Shown: piece by piece, positions 18,479 through 28,086 of the stretch
Numbering within the stretch: position 1 is the stretch's first letter
Layout: each line of letters opens with the position of its first letter
NCBI RefSeq assembly: GCF_017357225.1
Contig: NZ_CP071604.1
Location: forward strand, 1,429,001 to 1,493,000
Source: Rhizobium binae
GTDB lineage: Bacteria > Pseudomonadota > Alphaproteobacteria > Rhizobiales > Rhizobiaceae
Direction: 5' to 3'
Length of the DNA: 64,000 nucleotides
The notes under the pieces: model-generated
Seen by the model: only the letters and a program-made list of their open reading frames with translations
Database searches by the model: none
Told to the model about the DNA's origin: nothing
Made by a program: the position numbers and the translations under genes

Positions 18479-19978
18479 CTATCTAGCCCCCGGCCGAACC
18501 CATGCGTAACCGAGCGCGAAGTTGTCGCCCTGGCGGCCGAAATAATAGGGAAGCGACAGCGAGCCCATCTCCTGCGGCACGATGCCCGCTGCCGCCAGCG
18601 CCGATGAAAACCGCTCCGGCATAACCGCATCCGCAGCCGCCGCCGCCTTCTTGCCGCGCCAGACGATTAGCACCGGTCCGCCTGCTATTGTGTAGGCCGG
18701 AATGCCCGCAACGGGAAAATCGGGGATGACAACCGGCACGTCGGGAAGCTGCAGACGCATGTTCCCGGCGACATAGGGGTCCGAAGCAATCACCAGCGCG
18801 GGTTCGGCCGGTCGGGTCATTTCGCGGACGAGATCGGCCATTGGCACATTCGGTCGGCTGTAGGTGCCGATCAGCCCGGCGCCGACCACGCGGAAGCAGA
18901 GCGCGACTAGCACACAGGCCATCAGCACCGGAACGACCGGCCGGAAGCGGCGCAGCCCGGCGGAAAGATCGAGCCCGGCCGCCTGCATCTTTGCCAGGAA
19001 ATAGATCGGTAGCACCAGCAGGAACGGGTCGAGCCATCGCTCACGCACCGTGGTGGAACCGGTGAACAGCACGATCAGAACGATGCCGGCAAGGCTTGCC
19101 AGCATCATCCGCTCCATCATCGTGGTCCAGCGGTTTCCTGCCGAAAGCATCAGGACAAAATCCCGCCGGAAGGCGGCTGCGAAGATGGCCACCGGGAGCG
19201 CCGCAAAGGCGATGATGGCGATGAGAAAGGCGAGGAGGCCTTTGCCAACCCGGGCGATGCCGGCGGGTTCGTTACCGGCGGCCATCTTGACCAGAGTATC
19301 GGAGGAGGCGAATGCGAGATTGCCCTGCAGCCAGATTGCGTGCGGCAGGACGATGACGAGCGCGACGGCAATCGCGATGAGCATACGCCAGTCGAGCGTC
19401 CTGCGCCGCCAGTCGGCGTCAGGCAGGATGGCAATCAGCGCGACGATCGGCATCAGCGCGAAATTGTACTTCGAGATCAGCCCGATGCCGGTCGCAAGCC
19501 CGAGCAGCAGGTAACTGCCGGTATCCGGCCGCTCGAGCGTGCGGAAGAAGCCGTAGAGGAAGAGCGAGCTTGCAAAGAGCAGCGCCGTCGTGTGGGTCAG
19601 ATCCTGCTGCGCCATGTAGGAGACCTGGGGCAGGGTGATAAGCGCCATCATCCCGACGGCGGCAAGCTTCTGGTCCTTCAGCGCCTCGCGTCCGGCGAGG
19701 CCGTAAAAGAGGTAACACAGGAAGAGCAGGATATTCTTCGGCACGATCAGCGCGCCGATCGACATGCCCGTCACCGAAACGATGGCATATTGCATCCAGT
19801 TGTAGAAGGGCGGCTGCGGGCCGTAGCCCGCCAGCAGATATTGCGAGAAGAAGGATTGCTCGGCCTCGTCGAGCTCCAGCGAATGCGGAAGCGCGATGCG
19901 CAACGCGATATTCAGCACGAAATAGGCTGCAAGCAGCAGCGCCGCGGTTCTGATCGTCCTCGTCGCGCGTTCCAGCAT
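18479..19978 (-). CDS. ArnT/RgtA-like polyprenyl-phosphate glycosyltransferase (paralogue 2)
   Basis: The protein (499 aa) has the same architecture as paralogue 1: [20 protein letters not shown] start, [20 protein letters not shown] with the acidic catalytic residues near 37-40, [19 protein letters not shown], multiple helices, and a C-terminal periplasmic domain ending [11 protein letters not shown]. It is closer to paralogue 3 than to paralogue 1. It probably transfers galacturonic acid from dodecaprenyl phosphate to the LPS inner core; it may correspond to rgtA. It starts 12 nt after the GT2 gene stop, in the same operon, and abuts the next gene with no spacer. Confidence 0.86.
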
Positions 19979-19990
19979 CGTGCTGCCAGC

Positions 19991-21007
19991 TTAGGCTTGG
20001 CTTTGATCGTCGAAGATCTGCCGTACGATATAATTCGGAGAAGCGTCGTCACGATAATAGGTGCGCGCGATCATTTCCGCCAGAATGCCGGTCGTGATCA
20101 TCTGCACCGACGACAGCAGCAGCACGACGCCGACCATCAGCATCGGCCTCGTGCCGATATCATTTCCCATGATGAACTTGTCGAAACCGAGGTAAAGCAG
20201 GATCAGCATGGCGACGGCGCCGAGGCCGAGACCCAGCGAGCCGAAGAAATGCCCCGGCCGCGCCTTGTAGCGCATGAAGAACATCACCGACAGCAGGTCG
20301 AGGATGACGCGGAAGGTGCGCGAAATACCGTATTTCGAAACGCCGTGCTCGCGGGCATGGTGGGTGACGGCCATCTCGCCGATGCGCGAGCTCGGGACGA
20401 CACCGGCCACCCAGGCCGGGATGAAGCGGTGCATCTCGCCCATCAGCTTCACCTGCTTGATGATCGAGGCCCGGTAGATCTTCAGGCTGCAGCCGTAGTC
20501 GTGCAGCTTGACGCCGGTGATGCGGCCGATCAGGTAGTTGGCGCACCATGAGGGAATCTTGCGCAGAAACAGACCATCCTTGCGGTTCTTGCGCCAGCCA
20601 ACCAGCAGGTCGAGTTCGCGTCTTTCGAGCTCCGAGACCATCGCAGGGATGTCCTTGGGGTCGTTCTGCAGATCGCCGTCCATCGTCGCGATCAGCCGGC
20701 CCCGGGCGGTGTCGATGCCGGCCTGCATGGCGGCGGTCTGGCCGAAATTGCGCTGCAGCTCAACGATTCTGAGCGCCAGCCCGTTTCGCCCGACAAATTT
20801 GCGGGCGTTGACGAGCGTCGCATCGGTGCTGCCGTCGTCAACGAGGATCAGTTCCCAGCGATGAGGATATTGGGCCATCGCAGCGAGGATGCGTTCGACC
20901 AGTGGGCCGACGCTTTCCTCTTCGTTGAAAACCGGCACGACCAGCGACAGCTCGAGCGATTGTACCGGATCATTCGTGCCACGAATGGGCTCTACCGTTG
21001 TCTGCAA
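19991..21007 (-). CDS. rgtE: GT2 polyprenyl-phosphate glycosyltransferase, probable dodecaprenyl-phosphate-GalA synthase
   Basis: The protein (338 aa) is a DPM1/ArnC-like GT2 enzyme. It shows VVPVFNEEESVGPLVERI, ILVDDGSTDATL, ATMDGDLQNDPKDIPAMV (DxD metal site) and GWRKNRKDGLFLRKIPSWCAN, then two C-terminal membrane helices. It should charge a polyprenyl phosphate on the cytoplasmic face with a sugar from a nucleotide donor. Placement between RgtA-like paralogues matches RgtE, which makes dodecaprenyl-phosphate galacturonic acid in R. leguminosarum. The start is TTG at 21007 with GGAG 7 nt upstream; an ATG just before it is out of frame. Confidence 0.88.
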   Translation of the reverse strand: MQTTVEPIRGTNDPVQSLELSLVVPVFNEEESVGPLVERILAAMAQYPHRWELILVDDGSTDATLVNARKFVGRNGLALRIVELQRNFGQTAAMQAGIDTARGRLIATMDGDLQNDPKDIPAMVSELERRELDLLVGWRKNRKDGLFLRKIPSWCANYLIGRITGVKLHDYGCSLKIYRASIIKQVKLMGEMHRFIPAWVAGVVPSSRIGEMAVTHHAREHGVSKYGISRTFRVILDLLSVMFFMRYKARPGHFFGSLGLGLGAVAMLILLYLGFDKFIMGNDIGTRPMLMVGVVLLLSSVQMITTGILAEMIARTYYRDDASPNYIVRQIFDDQSQA

Positions 21008-21103
21008 CTTTCATCTCCAAAAGCCGGGCGGCCTGGCAATCCTTACTGCCGCCACCGCGTTTGCGGAAGCCTACTACATGAAGTGTCCGTCCGTTGCCAG
21101 CGG
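20993..21103 (+). repeat. Degenerate direct repeat, left copy, with flippase-gene remnant
   Basis: This stretch resembles 22733-22842 in the same order and orientation. Shared blocks are CCGTTGT, CTCC, AAAA, GCCTGGCAAT (21031) and the 15-mer GCCTACTACATGAAG (21069-21083). In the right copy the ATGAAG is the start of the flippase-like gene. Here the same ATG (21078) opens a short frame that reads MKCPSVASGQYRF against MKSSIVESQQSWF, then degenerates. It looks like the broken 5' end of a former flippase copy. Confidence 0.65.
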
Positions 21104-21116
21104 ACAATACCGGTTT
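21078..21116 (+). pseudogene. Remnant of flippase gene 5' end
   Basis: Thirteen codons resembling the start of the intact flippase-like gene at 22817 (shared M, K, V, S, Q, F in register), followed by unrelated sequence running into the end of the neighbouring transferase gene. Not expected to be functional. Confidence 0.45.
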
Positions 21117-21139
21117 CCCTCGCCCGAGCTGCCGCAACG

Positions 21140-22633
21140 CTATAGCGCGCCGCCCTCCACCCAGGAGTAGCCGATGGAAAAGGTATGTTTGCCGTCGCCG
21201 AAAAGATAGGGCAGCGTCAGCGTATTTATCTCTTTCAGACGAATACCCGATTTGACGAGATTGTCGGCGAATTCGGGCGAAATGGTTGGATCATTTGCGG
21301 TTTCGCCCCGCCAGACGACGAGCACAGGACCCTTCGCGGCCGCATATTCGGGCACCCCTCGCCCTGGAAAGAAGGGGATTACGACGGGAACGTCGGGGAA
21401 TTCCAGCTTCATGTTGCCGGCCACGAACTTGCTTCCCGCGACGATCAGCACCGGCTTGCGTGTCGCGGTCAGTTCGTCAACGAAATTCGCGAACGGCACA
21501 TTCGTTCTCGTATAAACGCCGGTATATTGCATCGCGACGATCCTGAGCAGGAGGATCGCCAGGATGACGACCATGAAGACCGGCACTACTGGCCGGAAGC
21601 GCGCCAGGCCAGCGGAAAGATCGAAGCCGGCGGTTTCGAGCTTCAGGAAAAGATAGATCAGCATGACGAGCAGGCACGGGTCGAGCCAGCGCTCGTGGAT
21701 GTCGCTCGCGCCGGCGACGATGACGACACCGACGAAGGCCAGCAGGCTGACAATCATCATCCGCTCGATGACCCGGATCATCGGACTGGACGCGGAAAGT
21801 GCACGGAAGAAATCCCGTCGGAAGGCTGCTGCGAAGAAAACGATCGGCAATGCGACGAAACCGAGGACGGCGATGACGAGGGAGAGCAGTCCCTGTCCGA
21901 TGCGGGGGAGGCCAGCGGCCGCTTCGTGCTCGGCGGTCATCCGCTCCATGGTCGGGGCCGAAGCGCTGACGAGGTTATCGGGCAGCCAGAGCGCATGCGG
22001 CAGAACGACCACAATGGCGATTGCGAACGCCGGCAGCAGACGCCAGTCCAACAGACGGCTGCGCCACTTTCGGTCCACCAGGACCGCGACGAAGGCGGCA
22101 AACGGCAGAATGGCGAAATTGTATTTGGAGATGAGGCCGATGCCGGTGGCGATGCCGATGACGAGGTAGCTGCCGATCGTCGGCTGCCGAAGTGTGCGAA
22201 AAAAGCCGAAGAGGAAGAGCGAGGTCGCAAACAGCAGGGCAACGGTATGGGTCAGTTCGCGCTGCGCCATGAGGCCGACCTGCGGCAGGGTAATCAGGCT
22301 CAGCATGGCGATGGGCGGGAGAAGACGGCTCTTCAGCACCTCGCGCGCAGCAAGCCCATAGAACAGATAGCAGCCGAAGAGAATGATGTTCTTCGGAACC
22401 GAGAGCGCCCACATCGTGATCCCGGTGACCGAGACGATGGCGTATTGGATCCAGTTGTAGAAGGGCGGTTGCGGGCCGTAGCCGGCCAGAAGATATTGCG
22501 AGTAGAAAGATTGTTCCGCCTCGTCGAGATCGAGCGTATGGGGCAGCGCGATGCGGAGCACGATGTTCAGCAGGAAATAGACTGCCAGAAAAATGCTCGC
22601 GCTCGTAATATTTCTCGTAATGCGCTCCAACAT
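21140..22633 (-). CDS. ArnT/RgtA-like polyprenyl-phosphate glycosyltransferase (paralogue 3)
   Basis: The protein (497 aa) begins [20 protein letters not shown] and has [20 protein letters not shown] and [20 protein letters not shown], nearly identical to paralogue 2. The C-terminal domain ends [14 protein letters not shown] chose the ATG at 22633 to match paralogue 2; the open frame runs 46 codons further upstream. It is the first gene of the transferase cluster and probably another LPS galacturonosyl transferase, perhaps rgtC by gene order. It is flanked by degenerate direct repeats, which suggests it arrived in this spot by local duplication. Confidence 0.86.
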
Positions 22634-22732
22634 CGATCTCCAAGTCAAACCGGCAAGGTGCCGTCGTCCATCGGTCTGCCGCCGGATCGTCGGCCTTAAA
22701 GCGATCGCGCCGCCACCGCCATCAACTCCGCC

Positions 22733-22842
22733 GTTGTGCCCAACCGCCATTTCTCCTAAAACGCCTGGCAATAGAGCCGGGGCTCATGCCGACGCCAAGC
22801 GAGGAATGCCTACTACATGAAGAGTTCGATCGTTGAAAGCCA
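22733..22842 (+). repeat. Degenerate direct repeat, right copy
   Basis: Partner of the repeat at 20993-21103; contains GCCTGGCAAT at 22763 and GCCTACTACATGAAG at 22808-22822. The second block includes the start codon of the flippase-like gene. Confidence 0.6.
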
Positions 22843-23779
22843 GCAGTCCTGGTTTATGCGCAATCGCATGACGGCGCTGACGGTCGTAATTGTCGCAGCC
22901 TATGCGCTCTTCGTGCAATGGTTCTGGGGTTGGCCCGTTATCATTCGCCAGTGGGCCGATGTCGGGGCAGGCCCGGTGATCGGAGCGCTCGTGGCGCTGA
23001 CCGGCACCTATTTCCTGCGCACATGGCGCATCTACGACTATTTTCCGAAGGAGACCGCGGGCCGGTTCGCGACCCTTTTCCGTGTCACGCAGATCCACAA
23101 TCTCCTGAACATCATGCTGCCCTTCCGGACCGGCGAGACCAGCTTTCCGCTGTTGATGCGCACCGAATTCGGCATTCCGCTGACGCGCGGAACCTCGGCG
23201 CTCTTCGTCATGCGGCTGCTCGACCTGCATGCTCTGCTGGCGGCTGCCGGCATCGGCTTTGCGCTCGCTGCGGCCGATGCTCTCGTCGCATGGTCGCTTT
23301 GGGCGGTCTTCCTGCTGCTGCCGGTCGCAGCCTTCGCCGCGCGCAAGCCGCTGTTGCGCGGCGCCGCCAGGCTGTTGCCTGCAAAGGCGCAGAAATTGGT
23401 CGTCGAGATCGAAAACGGCTTGCCGCTCGGCGCCGCGGCCTTTGCGCGCGCCTGGGCGATGACCATCGTCAACTGGCTGGTGAAGGTGATCGTGCTCGCC
23501 TGGGCACTCGGCCTGATGGGCGTTGTGCCGATGGCGGCAAGCTTCGGCGGCGCGCTTGGCGGCGAACTCTCCTCCGTCCTGCCGGCGCATGCGCCGGGCG
23601 GGGTCGGCACCTACCCAGCCGGCATCACTGCCGGCGCCATTGCGCTCGGGGCGTCGAGCGAGCGGGCGGCTCTGGCTGCACTGGCGCAGGCGAGCGTCAA
23701 TGCCCATCTGCTGATCATCGTCTCGGCACTGACGGGCACGGCGATCTCACTGCCGCTCGGACGCCGCGGCAAGCGCTGA
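22817..23779 (+). CDS. Flippase-like integral membrane protein (LPG synthase TM-region family)
   Basis: The protein (320 aa) has about eight helices of the lysylphosphatidylglycerol synthetase transmembrane family (AglD/YbhN-like, formerly UPF0104), without the C-terminal aminoacyl-transfer domain. Family hallmarks are FRVTQIHNLLNIMLPFRTGE near residues 85-110 and LSSVLPAHAPGGVGTYPAG near 250-270. Such proteins are proposed lipid or lipid-sugar flippases. Its place divergent from the rgt-like transferases makes it a candidate for moving dodecaprenyl-phosphate galacturonic acid across the inner membrane, an inference. The 3' end overlaps the convergent sigma factor gene by 33 bp. Confidence 0.85.
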   Translation: MKSSIVESQQSWFMRNRMTALTVVIVAAYALFVQWFWGWPVIIRQWADVGAGPVIGALVALTGTYFLRTWRIYDYFPKETAGRFATLFRVTQIHNLLNIMLPFRTGETSFPLLMRTEFGIPLTRGTSALFVMRLLDLHALLAAAGIGFALAAADALVAWSLWAVFLLLPVAAFAARKPLLRGAARLLPAKAQKLVVEIENGLPLGAAAFARAWAMTIVNWLVKVIVLAWALGLMGVVPMAASFGGALGGELSSVLPAHAPGGVGTYPAGITAGAIALGASSERAALAALAQASVNAHLLIIVSALTGTAISLPLGRRGKR

Positions 23780-24988
23780 AATCCGTTTCCTCAAGAATGC
23801 CTGCTCCGGCTCCTGCCGGCAGAGCGACAAGGCCGTCTGATAGGATGCGATCGCCTCTTCTCTCCGTCCCAGCCGTCGCAGGAAATCGGCGCGCGCCGAA
23901 TGGGCAAGGTGATAGGCCTGCAGCTCCCGGCGCCCCAGAATGGCATCGATGAGATCCAGCCCCTTTGCCGGCCCTTCGGCCATCGAAATCGCCACCGCCC
24001 GGTTGAGCTCGACGACCGGTGAGGGCTGGGCTGCCAGAAGTAGGTCGTAAAAGAAGGCAATTCGCCGCCAGTCGGTTTCCTCGGCGGTCGGCGCCTTCGC
24101 ATGTTCGGCGGCAATCGCCGCCTGCACCGTATAGGTGCCGATCTCTTCCGTCCGCATTGCCTTGGCGAGGAATGCCAGGCCTTCCGAGATCTTGGCGCGG
24201 TCCCAGAGCGAGCGGTCCTGATCGGCCAGCAGCACCAGCGCTTCCTCCTCGCTGCTGCGGGCGCTGCGGCGGGAATCCTGCAGCAGCATCAGCGCCATAA
24301 GTCCGCAAACATCAGGATGCGGCAGCAGCGCCAGGAGCAGCCGCGCCAACCGGATGGCCTCGCCGGTCAGGTCGGCGCGAACGACCGCGTCTCCCGAAGA
24401 GGCGGAATAGCCTTCGTTGAAAACGAGATAGATGACGTGCAGCACCCGGTCGAGCCGCTCGGGCAATGCCTCGCGGCCCGGCACTTCATAAGGGATGTTC
24501 GCAGCCCGGATCCTGTTTTTGGCGCGCACGATCCGCTGAGCGACCGTCGGCGCCGGAATGAGGAAGGCATGGGCGATCTCTTCGGTGGTCAGTCCGCAGA
24601 TTTCCCGAAGCGCCATCGCCGTCTGCGCATCCGCGGGGATAGCCGGGTGGCAGCAGGTGAAGATCAGCCGCAGCATGTCGTCCTCGATCGCTTCCATGTC
24701 GCCCGTCTCCGTTTCGTCGACGCTATAGAGGCTGTCCTCGATGTGCTGCTGCGCGGCATCGAAACGCGCACGCCGCCGGATCGCGTCGATCGCCTTGAAG
24801 CGGCCGGTCGAGACAAGCCAGCCGGCGGGGTTGGCGGGAACGCCATCGACCGGCCATGTTCGTGCGGCGGCCGCAAAGGCATCGTGCAGCGCCTCCTCCG
24901 CGCGGTCGAAATCGCCGAGCAGTCGGATCAGCGTCGCCAGCACCCGGCGAGACTGGGTTCGGTAGATCTCCTCGATGACGCTTTCCAA
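23747..24988 (-). CDS. ECF42-type RNA polymerase sigma factor with C-terminal TPR-like extension
   Basis: The protein (413 aa) is an extracytoplasmic-function sigma factor much longer than the usual 180-200 residues. Sigma-2 region: IEEIYRTQSRRVLATLIRLLGDFDRAEEALHDAF. Sigma-4 region: AMALREICGLTTEEIAHAFLIPAPTVAQRIVRAKNRI. The C-terminal 220 residues form a helical TPR/SnoaL-free extension ending in tetratricopeptide-like repeats (DRSLWDRAKI to QEPEQAFLRKR). This layout with adjacent DGPF proteins defines the ECF42 group, which has no anti-sigma factor; the extension is needed for activity. The start is TTG at 24988 with GAGG 6 nt upstream. It is the last gene of a four-gene operon, 8 bp after the DGPF gene. 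Confidence 0.92.
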   Translation of the reverse strand: MESVIEEIYRTQSRRVLATLIRLLGDFDRAEEALHDAFAAAARTWPVDGVPANPAGWLVSTGRFKAIDAIRRRARFDAAQQHIEDSLYSVDETETGDMEAIEDDMLRLIFTCCHPAIPADAQTAMALREICGLTTEEIAHAFLIPAPTVAQRIVRAKNRIRAANIPYEVPGREALPERLDRVLHVIYLVFNEGYSASSGDAVVRADLTGEAIRLARLLLALLPHPDVCGLMALMLLQDSRRSARSSEEEALVLLADQDRSLWDRAKISEGLAFLAKAMRTEEIGTYTVQAAIAAEHAKAPTAEETDWRRIAFFYDLLLAAQPSPVVELNRAVAISMAEGPAKGLDLIDAILGRRELQAYHLAHSARADFLRRLGRREEAIASYQTALSLCRQEPEQAFLRKRISALAAASERQ

Positions 24989-24996
24989 GGGGCACC

Positions 24997-25356
24997 TCAG
25001 TTTGGAAGGGTGAGCGTTCGCACCGGCCTCAGTTCGACCGCGCCGTAGCGGGCCGACGGAATTCGCCCGGCGATTTCCGTCGCCGTCTCAATGCCAGGCG
25101 CCTCGATGACGTAGAAGCCGGCCAGATGCTCCTTCGTCTCGACATAGGGGCCGTCTGTGGCGGAGAGCTCATTGTTTCGAACCCGCAGCACGCTTGCTCG
25201 GTCAGGCATTTCGAGCGCATCAGAATGGATCATGAAGCCGTCGCGGCGCAATTCCTCGTCGAAGGCGAAATGCGCCTTGATGAGTTCGTCGGTTTCATCA
25301 GCTGTCAGTCTGCCGTCGGTATCGGCGCTGTTATAGATCAGGCAGATATAGCGCAT
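24997..25356 (-). CDS. DGPF-domain (YCII-related) protein 1
   Basis: The protein (119 aa) has the YCII-related/DGPF fold: MRYICLIYNSADTDGRLT at the start, RVRNNELSATDGPYVETKEH with the name motif changed to DGPY, and GFYVIEAPGIETATEIAGRI. The biochemical role of DGPF proteins is unknown; they are the standard companions and targets of ECF42 sigma factors. AAGGAGGAG precedes the ATG at 25356. It lies 3 bp from the preceding DGPF gene in the operon. Its sequence differs most from the other two copies. Confidence 0.9.
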   Translation of the reverse strand: MRYICLIYNSADTDGRLTADETDELIKAHFAFDEELRRDGFMIHSDALEMPDRASVLRVRNNELSATDGPYVETKEHLAGFYVIEAPGIETATEIAGRIPSARYGAVELRPVRTLTLPN

Positions 25357-25359
25357 CGC

Positions 25360-25719
25360 TCAGCACTCCTCCTTGATCGAATAGGCCGGGCGCACCTCGA
25401 TCGCGCCATAGCGCGCCACGGGAAAGGTCGCGGCGATCGCGGTTGCTTCCTGCATATCCTTGGCCTCGATCAGCACGAAGCCGCCGAGATGTTCCTTGAT
25501 TTCGGCGAAAGGGCCGTCCGTGGCCGTCACCCCGTTGCTGCGAACCCTGACCGTCACGGCCGTTGACGGCTCGCGCAGCGCCAAGGCCACGAGCAGATGG
25601 CCGCTGTCTCGCAGCCGGTCGTCGTTGACGACCGAATCCTTCGTCAGCTCTTCGCCTTCCTCGGGGGAAATGGCATTGATCTTCGCGGTTTCGAACCAGA
25701 CCTGGCACAGATATTTCAT
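25360..25719 (-). CDS. DGPF-domain (YCII-related) protein 2
   Basis: The protein (119 aa) starts MKYLCQVWFETAKINAIS and contains RVRSNGVTATDGPFAEIKEH and GGFVLIEAKDMQEATAIAA, a canonical DGPF protein. I chose the ATG at 25719, which matches the length of the other two copies; the frame is open 23 codons upstream. It is a close paralogue of the third copy. Second gene of the DGPF-DGPF-DGPF-ECF42 operon, beginning 10 bp after the preceding stop. Confidence 0.92.
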   Translation of the reverse strand: MKYLCQVWFETAKINAISPEEGEELTKDSVVNDDRLRDSGHLLVALALREPSTAVTVRVRSNGVTATDGPFAEIKEHLGGFVLIEAKDMQEATAIAATFPVARYGAIEVRPAYSIKEEC

Positions 25720-25729
25720 CGCCGTCTCC

Positions 25730-26089
25730 TCACGCTTCTTTTCCGAAAGAATGAATGGGCCGGACCTCGATCGCACCGAGCTTTGCAAGCGGGATGCCGG
25801 CGGCGATGCGGATCGCTTCGTTGAGGTCCTTGGCCTCGATCAGGATGAAGCCGCCGAGCGCTTCCTTCGTCTCTGCGAAGGGGCCGTCCGTCACCGATAT
25901 CTCGCCACTGCGCACCCGCACGGTCACCGCCGATGTCGGCGGCTGCAGCGCCTGGGCGACGATCATGTGGCCGCTTTCGGCAAGGTCCTTGTCGTAGTTC
26001 AAGGAATTCGCGTCGAGTTCGGCCTTCTGCTCTTTCGTCATCGCGTCGAGCACTGCGCCGTCGAACCAGACCTGACAGAGATAATTCAT
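25730..26089 (-). CDS. DGPF-domain (YCII-related) protein 3, first gene of the ECF42 operon
   Basis: The protein (119 aa) starts MNYLCQVWFDGAVLDAMT, contains RVRSGEISVTDGPFAETKEA and GGFILIEAKDLNEAIRIAA, and ends HSFGKEA. It has the same length as its two operon neighbours, so the trio looks like tandem duplication followed by divergence. An ECF42-like promoter lies 37-63 nt upstream of the ATG, so this operon is probably self-activated by the sigma factor it encodes. Confidence 0.92.
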   Translation of the reverse strand: MNYLCQVWFDGAVLDAMTKEQKAELDANSLNYDKDLAESGHMIVAQALQPPTSAVTVRVRSGEISVTDGPFAETKEALGGFILIEAKDLNEAIRIAAGIPLAKLGAIEVRPIHSFGKEA

Positions 26090-26125
26090 CGCGGACAGCC
26101 TCCTTGGGGTGTTTCAATGACTCTG

Positions 26126-26152
26126 GACGATCGAGCTTCACATTTTTCGACA
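26126..26152 (-). promoter_or_regulatory. Candidate ECF42-dependent promoter for the DGPF-sigma operon
   Basis: On the reverse strand TGTCGA (26152-26147), 17 nt, then CGTC (26129-26126), 37 nt before the first DGPF start codon. The reported ECF42 consensus is TGTCGA at -35 and CG(A/T)C at -10. Recalled consensus, exact match by eye. Confidence 0.65.
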
Positions 26153-26182
26153 GCGACCGAAAAAATCTTTGTCGCCGCCGGC

Positions 26183-26208
26183 TGTCGAAATCGCAAGGCG
26201 CGCTCGAC
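26183..26208 (+). promoter_or_regulatory. Candidate ECF42-dependent promoter, divergent copy
   Basis: TGTCGA (26183-26188), 16 nt, then CGAC (26205-26208), 35 nt before the ATG of the 70-residue membrane protein gene. Same pattern as the divergent promoter, so both transcription units are probably controlled by the same sigma factor. A further TGTCGA occurs at 26226. Confidence 0.6.
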
Positions 26209-26242
26209 AAGGCTTCATCGAAACCTGTCGAGGAGAACGGCA

Positions 26243-26455
26243 ATGTCTATTCTTGAAATCGCGCTCGCAAGCCAGATACGGGCCCGCCGCCATGACAACC
26301 GTCGCCAGGAATTCGACGAAAGCGATGGGCGGAAGGTCCTGCTGCGCACCGCTTTCGCCTTTGCCGCCTTCACCCTGCTGATAGCAGGGCTGAACCTTGC
26401 CGGCAGACCGCAGGAGGTTGCGCAGCAAAGAGCGCCCGTCGTTGCAGGCAGATGA
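26243..26455 (+). CDS. Small single-pass membrane protein, likely ECF42 regulon member
   Basis: The protein (70 aa) is not a recognised family. It has a charged N-terminal region (ASQIRARRHDNRRQEFDESD), one predicted membrane helix (TAFAFAAFTLLIAGLNLAG) and a short tail ending VVAGR. AGGAG lies 7 nt upstream of the ATG, and a TGTCGA-N16-CGAC promoter-like sequence lies just before that. It is divergent from the DGPF-sigma operon. The strong ribosome site and promoter support a real gene; the function is unknown. Confidence 0.65.
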   Translation: MSILEIALASQIRARRHDNRRQEFDESDGRKVLLRTAFAFAAFTLLIAGLNLAGRPQEVAQQRAPVVAGR

Positions 26456-26583: not shown

Positions 26584-28086
26584 CTATTGGAAGGCCGTTT
26601 CGAAGAAGCTGCGCAGCTTGCGCGAATGCAGCGCTTCCTTCGGCATAGCGGCAAGCTTCTGCACGGCGCGGATGCCGATCTGGAGATGCTGGTTGACCTG
26701 CGTGCGGTAGAAGGCGGTTGCCATGCCCGGCAGCTTCAATTCGCCGTGCAGCGGCTTGTCGGAGACGCAGAGCAGCGTGCCGTAAGGCACGCGGAAGCGG
26801 AAGCCGTTGGCTGCGATCGTTGCCGATTCCATGTCGAGTGCGATGGCGCGCGCCTGCGACAGCCGCTTTACCGGTCCGAGCTGATCGCGCAGTTCCCAGT
26901 TGCGGTTGTCGATCGTGCCGACGGTGCCGGTGCGCATGATGCGCTTCAACTCGAAGCCCTCGTAGCCGGTAATTTCGGCAACGGCGGCCTCCAGCGCTAC
27001 CTGCACTTCGGCGAGCGCCGGGATCGGCACCCAGACCGGCAGGTCGTCGTCGAGCACATGGTCCTCGCGCATATAGGCATGGGCTAGAACATAATCGCCG
27101 AGCCGCTGGCTGTTGCGCAGACCGGCGCAATGGCCGAGCATCAGCCAGGCATGCGGGCGCAGCACGGCGACATGGTCGGTGATCGTCTTGGCGTTGGAGG
27201 GGCCGACGCCGATATTGATCATGGTGATCCCGGCATGGCCCTTCTTCTTCAGATGATAGGCCGGCATCTGCGGCAGGCGTGCGAGTGTCACATCCGTTTC
27301 CGGCACGCTCGAGCCGGGCAGTGTGACGACATTGCCGGGCTCGACGAAGGCGGTATAACCGTCGCCGCCCTCGGCCATCAGCTTGCGCGCCCAGTTGCAG
27401 AATTCGTCGATATAGAACTGGTAGTTCGTGAACAGCACGAAATTCTGGAAATGCTCGGCATGCGTCGCGGTATAATGCGACAGCCGGGCCAGCGAATAAT
27501 CGATACGCTGGGCGGTGAACGGCGCAAGCGGCGAGGGCTCGCCCGGCGGCGGGATATATTCGCCGTTGGCGATCTCGTCGTCGGTGGTGTTGAGGTCCGG
27601 CGTGTCGAAGATATCGCGCATCGGGACGTCGACGAAGGCGGAGGCCGATGCTTCCACATGCGCGCCCTCGCCAAAGGCGAAATGCAGTGGAATCGGCGTC
27701 GTCGATTCCGAGACGATCACCGGAACATTGTGGCTCTTCATCAGAAGCGACAGCTGCTCCTTCAGGTAATGCTTGAAGAGCTTCGGCCGGGTGACCGTCG
27801 TCGTGTAGATGCCGGGCGCCGTGACGTGGCCGTAGGAGAGGCGCGAATCGACATGGCCGAAGCTGGTCGTCTCGATGCTTACCTGCGGATAGAAGGCGCG
27901 GTAGCGCGAGGCGATGGGAGCGCCTTGGGCAAGCTCGGTGAAGCTCTCGATCAGGAACGCCGTATTGCGCTCGTAAAGTGCGATCAGCGTCTCGACAGCC
28001 CTGGCGGGATCATCGAAGCTCTGCGGCTGGAAAGGGGATGGAGAGGAAATGTCGAGGGGCGACAAAGGGGAGATTCGTTTGTTCAT
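26584..28086 (-). CDS. amn: AMP nucleosidase
   Basis: The enzyme (500 aa) hydrolyses AMP to adenine and ribose-5-phosphate in the cytoplasm, helping set adenylate levels. It has the Amn N-terminal domain (RYRAFYPQVSIETTSFGHVDSRLSYGHV cut across residues 60-90) and a C-terminal phosphorylase-fold domain with INIGVGPSNAKTITDHVAVL, MLGHCAGLRNSQRLGDYVLA and the catalytic region IALDMESATIAANGFRFRVP. Length is normal for Amn. It stands alone, with convergent and divergent neighbours. Confidence 0.96.
   Translation of the reverse strand: MNKRISPLSPLDISSPSPFQPQSFDDPARAVETLIALYERNTAFLIESFTELAQGAPIASRYRAFYPQVSIETTSFGHVDSRLSYGHVTAPGIYTTTVTRPKLFKHYLKEQLSLLMKSHNVPVIVSESTTPIPLHFAFGEGAHVEASASAFVDVPMRDIFDTPDLNTTDDEIANGEYIPPPGEPSPLAPFTAQRIDYSLARLSHYTATHAEHFQNFVLFTNYQFYIDEFCNWARKLMAEGGDGYTAFVEPGNVVTLPGSSVPETDVTLARLPQMPAYHLKKKGHAGITMINIGVGPSNAKTITDHVAVLRPHAWLMLGHCAGLRNSQRLGDYVLAHAYMREDHVLDDDLPVWVPIPALAEVQVALEAAVAEITGYEGFELKRIMRTGTVGTIDNRNWELRDQLGPVKRLSQARAIALDMESATIAANGFRFRVPYGTLLCVSDKPLHGELKLPGMATAFYRTQVNQHLQIGIRAVQKLAAMPKEALHSRKLRSFFETAFQ

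Follow-up and report, generated by a model that had tools for sequence, protein, structure and literature searches.

A small membrane protein gene divergent from an ECF42-type sigma factor operon in Rhizobium: conservation and probable co-regulation

ECF42 sigma factors are widespread, and the group is poorly understood. In Sinorhizobium meliloti, the ECF42 sigma factor RpoE10, described together with SMc01151, carries a C-terminal TPR extension and is encoded behind a YCII gene, and the available part of the report identifies no anti-sigma factor nearby (PMC6180224). The RpoE10 targets described there are preceded by sites of the form TGTCGG-N17-CGTC; they are hypothetical and glyoxalase-like genes, and no small membrane gene in divergent position is among them (PMC6180224). 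Since overexpression of RpoE10 did not raise the YCII gene heading its own operon (PMC6180224), autoregulation is not a given in ECF42. A TPR extension and a neighbouring YCII protein are likewise found for Pseudomonas putida ECF-10 and Streptomyces venezuelae ECF42; in its available part, the 2022 review describing them states that for most of the ECF42 extension no interaction partner has been identified, and names the YCII protein as the likely one (PMC8999054). Sigma factors of the S. meliloti ECF26 group are linked to a gene for a single-span membrane protein, an anti-sigma factor encoded downstream of the sigma gene and equipped with anti-sigma and periplasmic domains (PMC6180224).

An ECF42-type operon and its divergent neighbour

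The window, a stretch of 64,000 nucleotides from Rhizobium binae, contains the following features.

23747..24988, minus strand: sigma factor of ECF42 architecture, 413 aa (Sigma70_r2, Sigma70_r4_2, DUF6596 and TPR matches)
24997..25356, minus strand: YCII/DGPF protein 3 of the operon, 119 aa (PF03795, 67.8 bits)
25360..25719, minus strand: YCII/DGPF protein 2 of the operon, 119 aa (PF03795, 56.9 bits)
25730..26089, minus strand: YCII/DGPF protein 1, first gene of the operon, 119 aa (PF03795, 82.4 bits)
26126..26152, minus strand: P1, operon promoter; TGTCGA (26152-26147), 17-bp spacer, CGTC (26129-26126); conserved in genus loci
26160..26169, no strand: A-rich tract between both -35 elements, conserved in 84 aligned intergenic regions; role putative
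26183..26208, plus strand: P2, small-gene promoter; TGTCGA (26183-26188), 16-bp spacer, CGAC (26205-26208); conserved in genus loci
26230..26235, plus strand: Shine-Dalgarno-like GAGGAG
26243..26455, plus strand: small single-span membrane protein gene, 70 aa, from the ATG at 26243 to the end of the stop codon at 26455 (kept in genus loci; pN/pS; structural model)

The whole operon spans 23747-26089 on the minus strand, with the sigma gene directly behind the three YCII/DGPF genes; for the middle one the ATG start was used in the Pfam search, the ORF list placing the start further upstream. Sigma regions 2 and 4 were both matched above the Pfam cut-off (Sigma70_r2, 33.4 bits; Sigma70_r4_2, 32.8 bits), followed by DUF6596 at residues 178-278 (124.2 bits) and by TPR matches at 361-396 that fall below the cut-off. 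The protein thus has the extension that marks ECF42, about 200 C-terminal residues with TPRs, together with the YCII-related neighbour genes, and P1 is a promoter of the TGTCG-N17-CGTC type when compared with the S. meliloti RpoE10 sites. The initial annotation had described an ECF42-type sigma factor in an operon with three DGPF paralogues, and all of these genes were found in place with their domains matched in Pfam. The locus differs from that of RpoE10 in having TGTCGA instead of TGTCGG as -35 element and three YCII genes instead of one; the TGTCGG promoter form occurs in the window genome with a separate, 46%-identical paralog.

The divergent gene encodes a protein with a single hydrophobic span, and an excess of K+R on the N-terminal side of the span was seen in 80 of its 86 members; the protein is predicted to insert in the membrane with the N-terminus inside. 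A predicted model of moderate confidence shows helices at residues 3-23 and 26-53. An amphipathic character of the N-terminal helix was considered and rejected, the hydrophobic moment not exceeding that of shuffles in the six members tried. Neither Pfam nor NCBIfam gave a family match or a recognised anti-sigma domain for the 70-aa protein, and 28 relatives yielded only scattered, weak Pfam matches, each in a single member. The earlier description of a single-span protein of 70 residues with a ribosome site and no family was therefore borne out. Whereas the ECF26-group anti-sigma factor has recognised domains and a downstream gene, the Rhizobium protein measures about 54-77 aa across loci (with classes of 54-55, 71 and 76 aa), is encoded divergently and matches no family. 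We found no mention of the gene in the available parts of the literature on ECF42 and on YCII proteins with ECF sigma factors in Rhizobium.

Conservation of the small gene and both promoters within the genus

The operon was found in 87 of 100 genomes of the genus, with a sigma factor match in all 87 loci and, within the stretch covered, three YCII copies in 85 and two in 2 of them. It was accompanied by one copy of the divergent small gene in 86 loci, the 87th being truncated at a contig end; the 13 genomes that lack the operon all lack the small gene as well. Operon and small gene are jointly present or absent in 99 of the 100 genomes, the remaining one being that cut by the contig end. The profile used here (A1) was built from 46 members that it later re-found, so that these counts bear on copy number and exclusivity and not on discovery. 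In some of the analyses the starts of L105 and L091 were moved to conserved start codons; the topology count (80/86) and the profile test of 32 against 54 members given below used L091 with its 52-aa form.

P1 ends in CGTC in 86 of 87 loci and in CGAC in one (L094). P2 is exact in 78 of 87 loci by the strict count (81 if three off-position matches are included) and one base off in the other 9. For L103, L106 and L107 the script placed the best one-off match some 25 nt downstream from where P2 lies; of these three, L103 alone was observed to have a one-off site at the P2 position itself. When 84 intergenic regions were aligned, leaving aside L060 and L061 with longer leaders and L069 with its contig end, the 20 element columns showed a mean identity of 0.994 against 0.631 for the other 133 columns, with values of 0.99-1.0 in the P1 element and 0.90-1.0 in the P2 element. 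Across its 7.06 Mb the genome has 96 + 101 sites of the pattern TGTCGA-N16/17-CGWC and 24 sites of the exact P1 form, and by our own arithmetic about 0.002 occurrences are expected by chance per strand of the 153-bp gap. Because of their conservation across the genus loci, both promoters are taken as real. The spacer is 17 bp in 76 of the 78 exact P2 sites and 16 bp in the window genome. The -10 elements differ, CGAC at P2 versus CGTC at P1; CGAC is also found as -10 at operon promoters of related loci, for instance L147, L150 and L190.

The motif TGTCGA-N16/17-CG(A/T)C, which had been noted before both the operon and the divergent gene, is thus matched in the sequence and kept genus-wide, and the conservation of small gene and promoter beside the operon, suggested at the time as a check, holds within the genus. 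Matching promoters, conservation and co-occurrence together make it very likely, as judged from sequence, that operon and small gene are co-regulated.

Distribution beyond the genus and search for further targets

In the more distant ECF42 loci of the family such a small gene was found in 0 of 31, which implies that the sigma group works without it. A non-rhizobial set of 69 loci, drawn from the best 80 of a capped match list and not a census, contained 29 loci with a located YCII gene, none with a convincing small divergent gene; the other 40 had no usable YCII position and are uninformative on this point. One of the 29, L335, gave an ORF match that lacks a promoter motif and was judged spurious. 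The small gene was absent from the examined RpoE10-like and Pseudomonas-type loci, the latter differing from the window in this respect. Its presence as a universal ECF42 feature is ruled out by the 31 and 29 loci, and the linkage of a small membrane gene to the ECF42 operon holds throughout the genus but finds no support in general: the arrangement is lineage-specific.

In two related genera a GFA-family gene occupies the divergent place, preceded by an exact P2-like site in L187 and by a site one base off in L188, and G051 (L189) has a P2-like site and no recognisable small membrane gene. Whether all look-alike genes share a single origin was approached through the sigma tree, in which G186, G208 and G343/G490 form branches separate from Rhizobium, and through scores against A1. 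A separate scoring step took in at most 14 candidates per genome. Scored against A1, the look-alikes of G184 (24.7 bits) and G208 (15.6) lie clearly above the best of 1000 shuffles (9.5), that of G343 (9.8) barely exceeds it, and those of G490 (7.2) and G186 (2.0) fall below.

A strict promoter pattern gave 32 sites in the window genome, of which 30 were examined under a poor coverage rule that called the window site itself covered. All 24 P1-type sites were examined; 19 lie inside coding-like ORFs and 5 outside, including the window site, and none of the 24 offered a second convincing target. P1-type sites just upstream of plausible genes at L120, L251 and L259 mark candidate targets.

Output gene or partner of the sigma factor

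We favour, with a probability of roughly 0.6, a self-contained, autoregulated ECF42 module in which the back-to-back promoters P1 and P2 are read by the same sigma factor. On activation, the sigma factor would transcribe from P1 its own operon, with the genes of the three YCII proteins and its own gene, and from P2 the gene of the small single-span inner-membrane protein. That protein would be a target specific to the lineage, in a divergent target slot whose content varies, acting as a membrane-located output or feedback component and not as an obligate anti-sigma factor. We infer that P2 is read by the ECF42-type sigma factor of the window, and the small protein is probably output rather than input; that two related genera have a GFA enzyme gene in this slot points to an output gene more than to an obligate partner. 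It is conceivable, if considerably less probable, that the sigma factor has in the small protein a membrane-tethered partner (anti-sigma factor, sensor or membrane-side input). The cytoplasmic N-terminal helix of the small protein would then bind a YCII protein or the TPR extension, linking sigma activity to the membrane, and production of the small protein from P2 would close a feedback loop. An obligate partner and an output would both fit the one-to-one occurrence of small gene and operon in the genus. The N-terminal part is conserved, with an invariant Arg preceding the span, and the outer tail is absent from the 54-55-aa class, which suggests that the conserved part faces the cytoplasm or the membrane; the partner that the review leaves unidentified would also leave room for such a role. 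Against it stand the distant loci without the gene, its replacement by the GFA gene, the lack of any match to a known anti-sigma family and the preference of the same review for the YCII protein.

An unlikely reading of P2 takes it as an operator-like inverted repeat for another regulator or as a second promoter of the operon on the opposite strand. Indeed, 53 of the 78 exact P2 loci, and likewise the window, contain an exact inverted repeat, TGTCGA-N15-TCGACA, but the plus-strand promoter reading is kept in the 25 of 78 in which the repeat is broken, and the position of P2 relative to the small-gene start is nearly fixed (30-35 nt to the start codon wherever P2 is exact). That the 70-aa ORF is no gene at all, with conservation limited to the promoter region, is very improbable. 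The ORF is short and without known family, and its frame is interrupted by a stop in L284, one of 11 named rhizobial loci; yet it recurs in 86 genus loci with pN/pS of 0.42 (71-aa class) and 0.53 (76-aa class) and third positions varying most, and a profile built from 32 members gives the remaining 54 a median score of 25.4 bits, with a minimum of 6.7, against a shuffle maximum of 9.6.

Across the genus, the sigma operon goes one-to-one with a small membrane gene whose promoter is a near-invariant copy of the operon's. If the small protein were a partner, it would be the missing membrane-side input or anti-sigma factor of the Rhizobium ECF42 sigma factor. Operon and small gene are very probably activated together, which makes the small protein a new lead to the role of this sigma factor; its gene offers a concrete handle on the role of ECF42 that is useful as input or output alike.

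Layout of the ECF42 locus

Domain matches bore out the initial annotation of a single operon of three YCII (DGPF family) genes and an ECF42-type sigma factor in the window (G000 C1:1429001-1493000, in a 7.06-Mb genome). The features discussed here are:

23747-26089, minus strand: three YCII (DGPF) genes, then the sigma factor (sequence and domain matches)
26243-26455, plus strand: small protein gene, 70 aa, one membrane span
26584-28086, minus strand: AMP nucleosidase, gene next after the small gene (domain match)

The sigma factor matched regions 2 and 4, DUF6596 and TPR, a predicted domain set that is the ECF42 architecture. The divergent product is a predicted single-span membrane protein of no recognised family, as had been claimed; searches of Pfam and NCBIfam both returned no match. 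Because the AMP nucleosidase gene lies on the minus strand, the small gene stands alone in this genome. Adjoining the 3' end of the operon, window positions 18479-23779 hold an envelope-modification cluster, which encodes an LPG_synthase_TM protein and two PMT_2-type glycosyltransferases that flank a GT2 glycosyltransferase.

Conservation of the small gene and both promoters within the genus

Among 100 genus genomes, 87 carry a gene closely related to the operon's first YCII gene and 13 lack one (E 1e-46 or better versus E 1e-11 or worse); all 87 loci were taken as the locus set. The window sigma factor was matched in every one of them (68-100% identity over the portion compared), and the small divergent ORF was detected in 86; in the remaining locus, L069, the contig ends right after the Shine-Dalgarno and ATG. 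Searched with a profile of the small gene, 86 of the 100 genomes gave a single match apiece, and the 13 that lack the operon gave none.

The proposed TGTCGA-N16/17-CG(A/T)C sequences were found ahead of both the operon (P1, minus strand, TGTCGA-N17-CGTC) and the divergent gene (P2, plus strand, TGTCGA-N16-CGAC, spacer 26189-26204), and are conserved in the genus. TGTCGA-N16/17-CGWC occurs 197 times in the genome, both strands summed, so that by our own arithmetic the chance of one such site per strand of the 153-bp gap is about 0.002; the regulon scan of the genome used strict site patterns and covered part of the sites. The P1 -10 is CGTC in 86 loci and CGAC in one. P2 is exact in 78, with a spacer of 17 bp in 76 and of 16 bp in two (the window genome and L056), and a one-base-off site is present in the other nine. 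In an alignment of the gap from 84 loci, the 20 element columns averaged 0.994 identity and the remaining 133 columns 0.631.

The small gene carries a coding signal, with pN/pS values of 0.42 in the 71-aa class and 0.53 in the 76-aa class (26 sequences each), codon third positions varying most. Scored with a profile of 32 members, the remaining 54 had a median of 25.4 bits and a minimum of 6.7. As the best shuffle reached 9.6, this profile does not tell a few distant members apart from shuffles. The proteins range from 54 to about 77 aa, the 54-55-aa class being without the outer tail. Nearly all have in common an M..LE start, the span and an Arg ahead of it, the last invariant among the 46 that were aligned. 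Positive-charge counts favour N-in in 80 of 86, with four ties. An AlphaFold2 model of moderate confidence (pLDDT 74.6, pTM 0.40) predicts helices at 3-23 and 26-53, and no amphipathicity was measurable in the N-terminal helix. Wherever an organism is named, database relatives carry the label Rhizobium, except two labelled Agrobacterium; where the protein is named, it is called hypothetical, membrane or transmembrane protein, and a single entry (P0030) is labelled F0F1-type ATP synthase assembly protein I.

ECF42 loci outside the genus

The strong evidence is drawn from one genus. The expectation that the small gene would accompany ECF42 operons held there (86/87 loci) and failed in the more distant loci of the family (0/31). 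Divergent small single-span ORFs adjoin related sigma factors in three genomes of the same family (G186, G184, G208) and two of a different family (G343, G490). Of these, only G184 and G208 have clear profile support, that for G343 being marginal. In an order-wide profile search, which speaks neither for nor against G186, G184 and G208, 7 of 397 genomes contained the gene, namely six of the genus and G343. Among the best 80 named loci listed, the small gene was present in 10 of 11 rhizobial ones, including R. phaseoli and R. sullae; in the eleventh (L284) an in-frame stop separates the N-terminal part of the frame from the membrane span. Of the other 69, the YCII position was usable in 29, with no convincing small gene in any of these. 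Beyond the small divergent gene, the adjacent gene encodes an endoribonuclease L-PSP (RidA-type) in L148:1568-2047, a dienelactone hydrolase in L147:1016-1885 and an M32 carboxypeptidase in L190:1206-2696.

In two further genera (G416 and G280) the divergent place is occupied by a GFA-family gene:

L187:590-1003: GFA-family gene, P2-like site exact
L188:1670-2080: GFA-family gene, P2-like site one base off

In a tree of 44 sigma factors, the Rhizobium loci formed one group (support 0.999), adjoined by G184/G152 (0.646); the GFA genera branch immediately outside these (0.927 and 0.593).

Regulation and role of the small protein

Most simply, the locus would be a local autoregulated module, in which one sigma factor would act at two back-to-back promoters flanking an A-rich tract and drive products in opposite directions from P1 and P2. 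Against autoregulation as a rule counts a report on RpoE10, the ECF42 sigma factor of Sinorhizobium meliloti, whose overexpression left the YCII gene at the operon head unresponsive (PMC6180224). The same report places TGTCGG-N17-CGTC sites at two RpoE10 target operons, whereas P1 and P2 carry TGTCGA (PMC6180224). A further ECF42-like sigma gene of the window genome (G000:C1:3321674-3322852; L185 upstream), 46% identical, has a TGTCGG-N17-CGTC site, and the two paralogs therefore probably read different -35 letters, to judge from these sequences. Another (G000:C1:3798921-3800117; L186 upstream) is 37% identical, with no TGTCG-type site in the stretch scanned.

The small protein might be a membrane-tethered partner of the sigma factor's TPR extension, a role that we consider rather unlikely. 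Two observations speak for a dedicated output or feedback role in the module, to which we assign a probability of about 0.6: the more distant ECF42 loci examined are without the small gene, and what occupies the divergent place varies between lineages.
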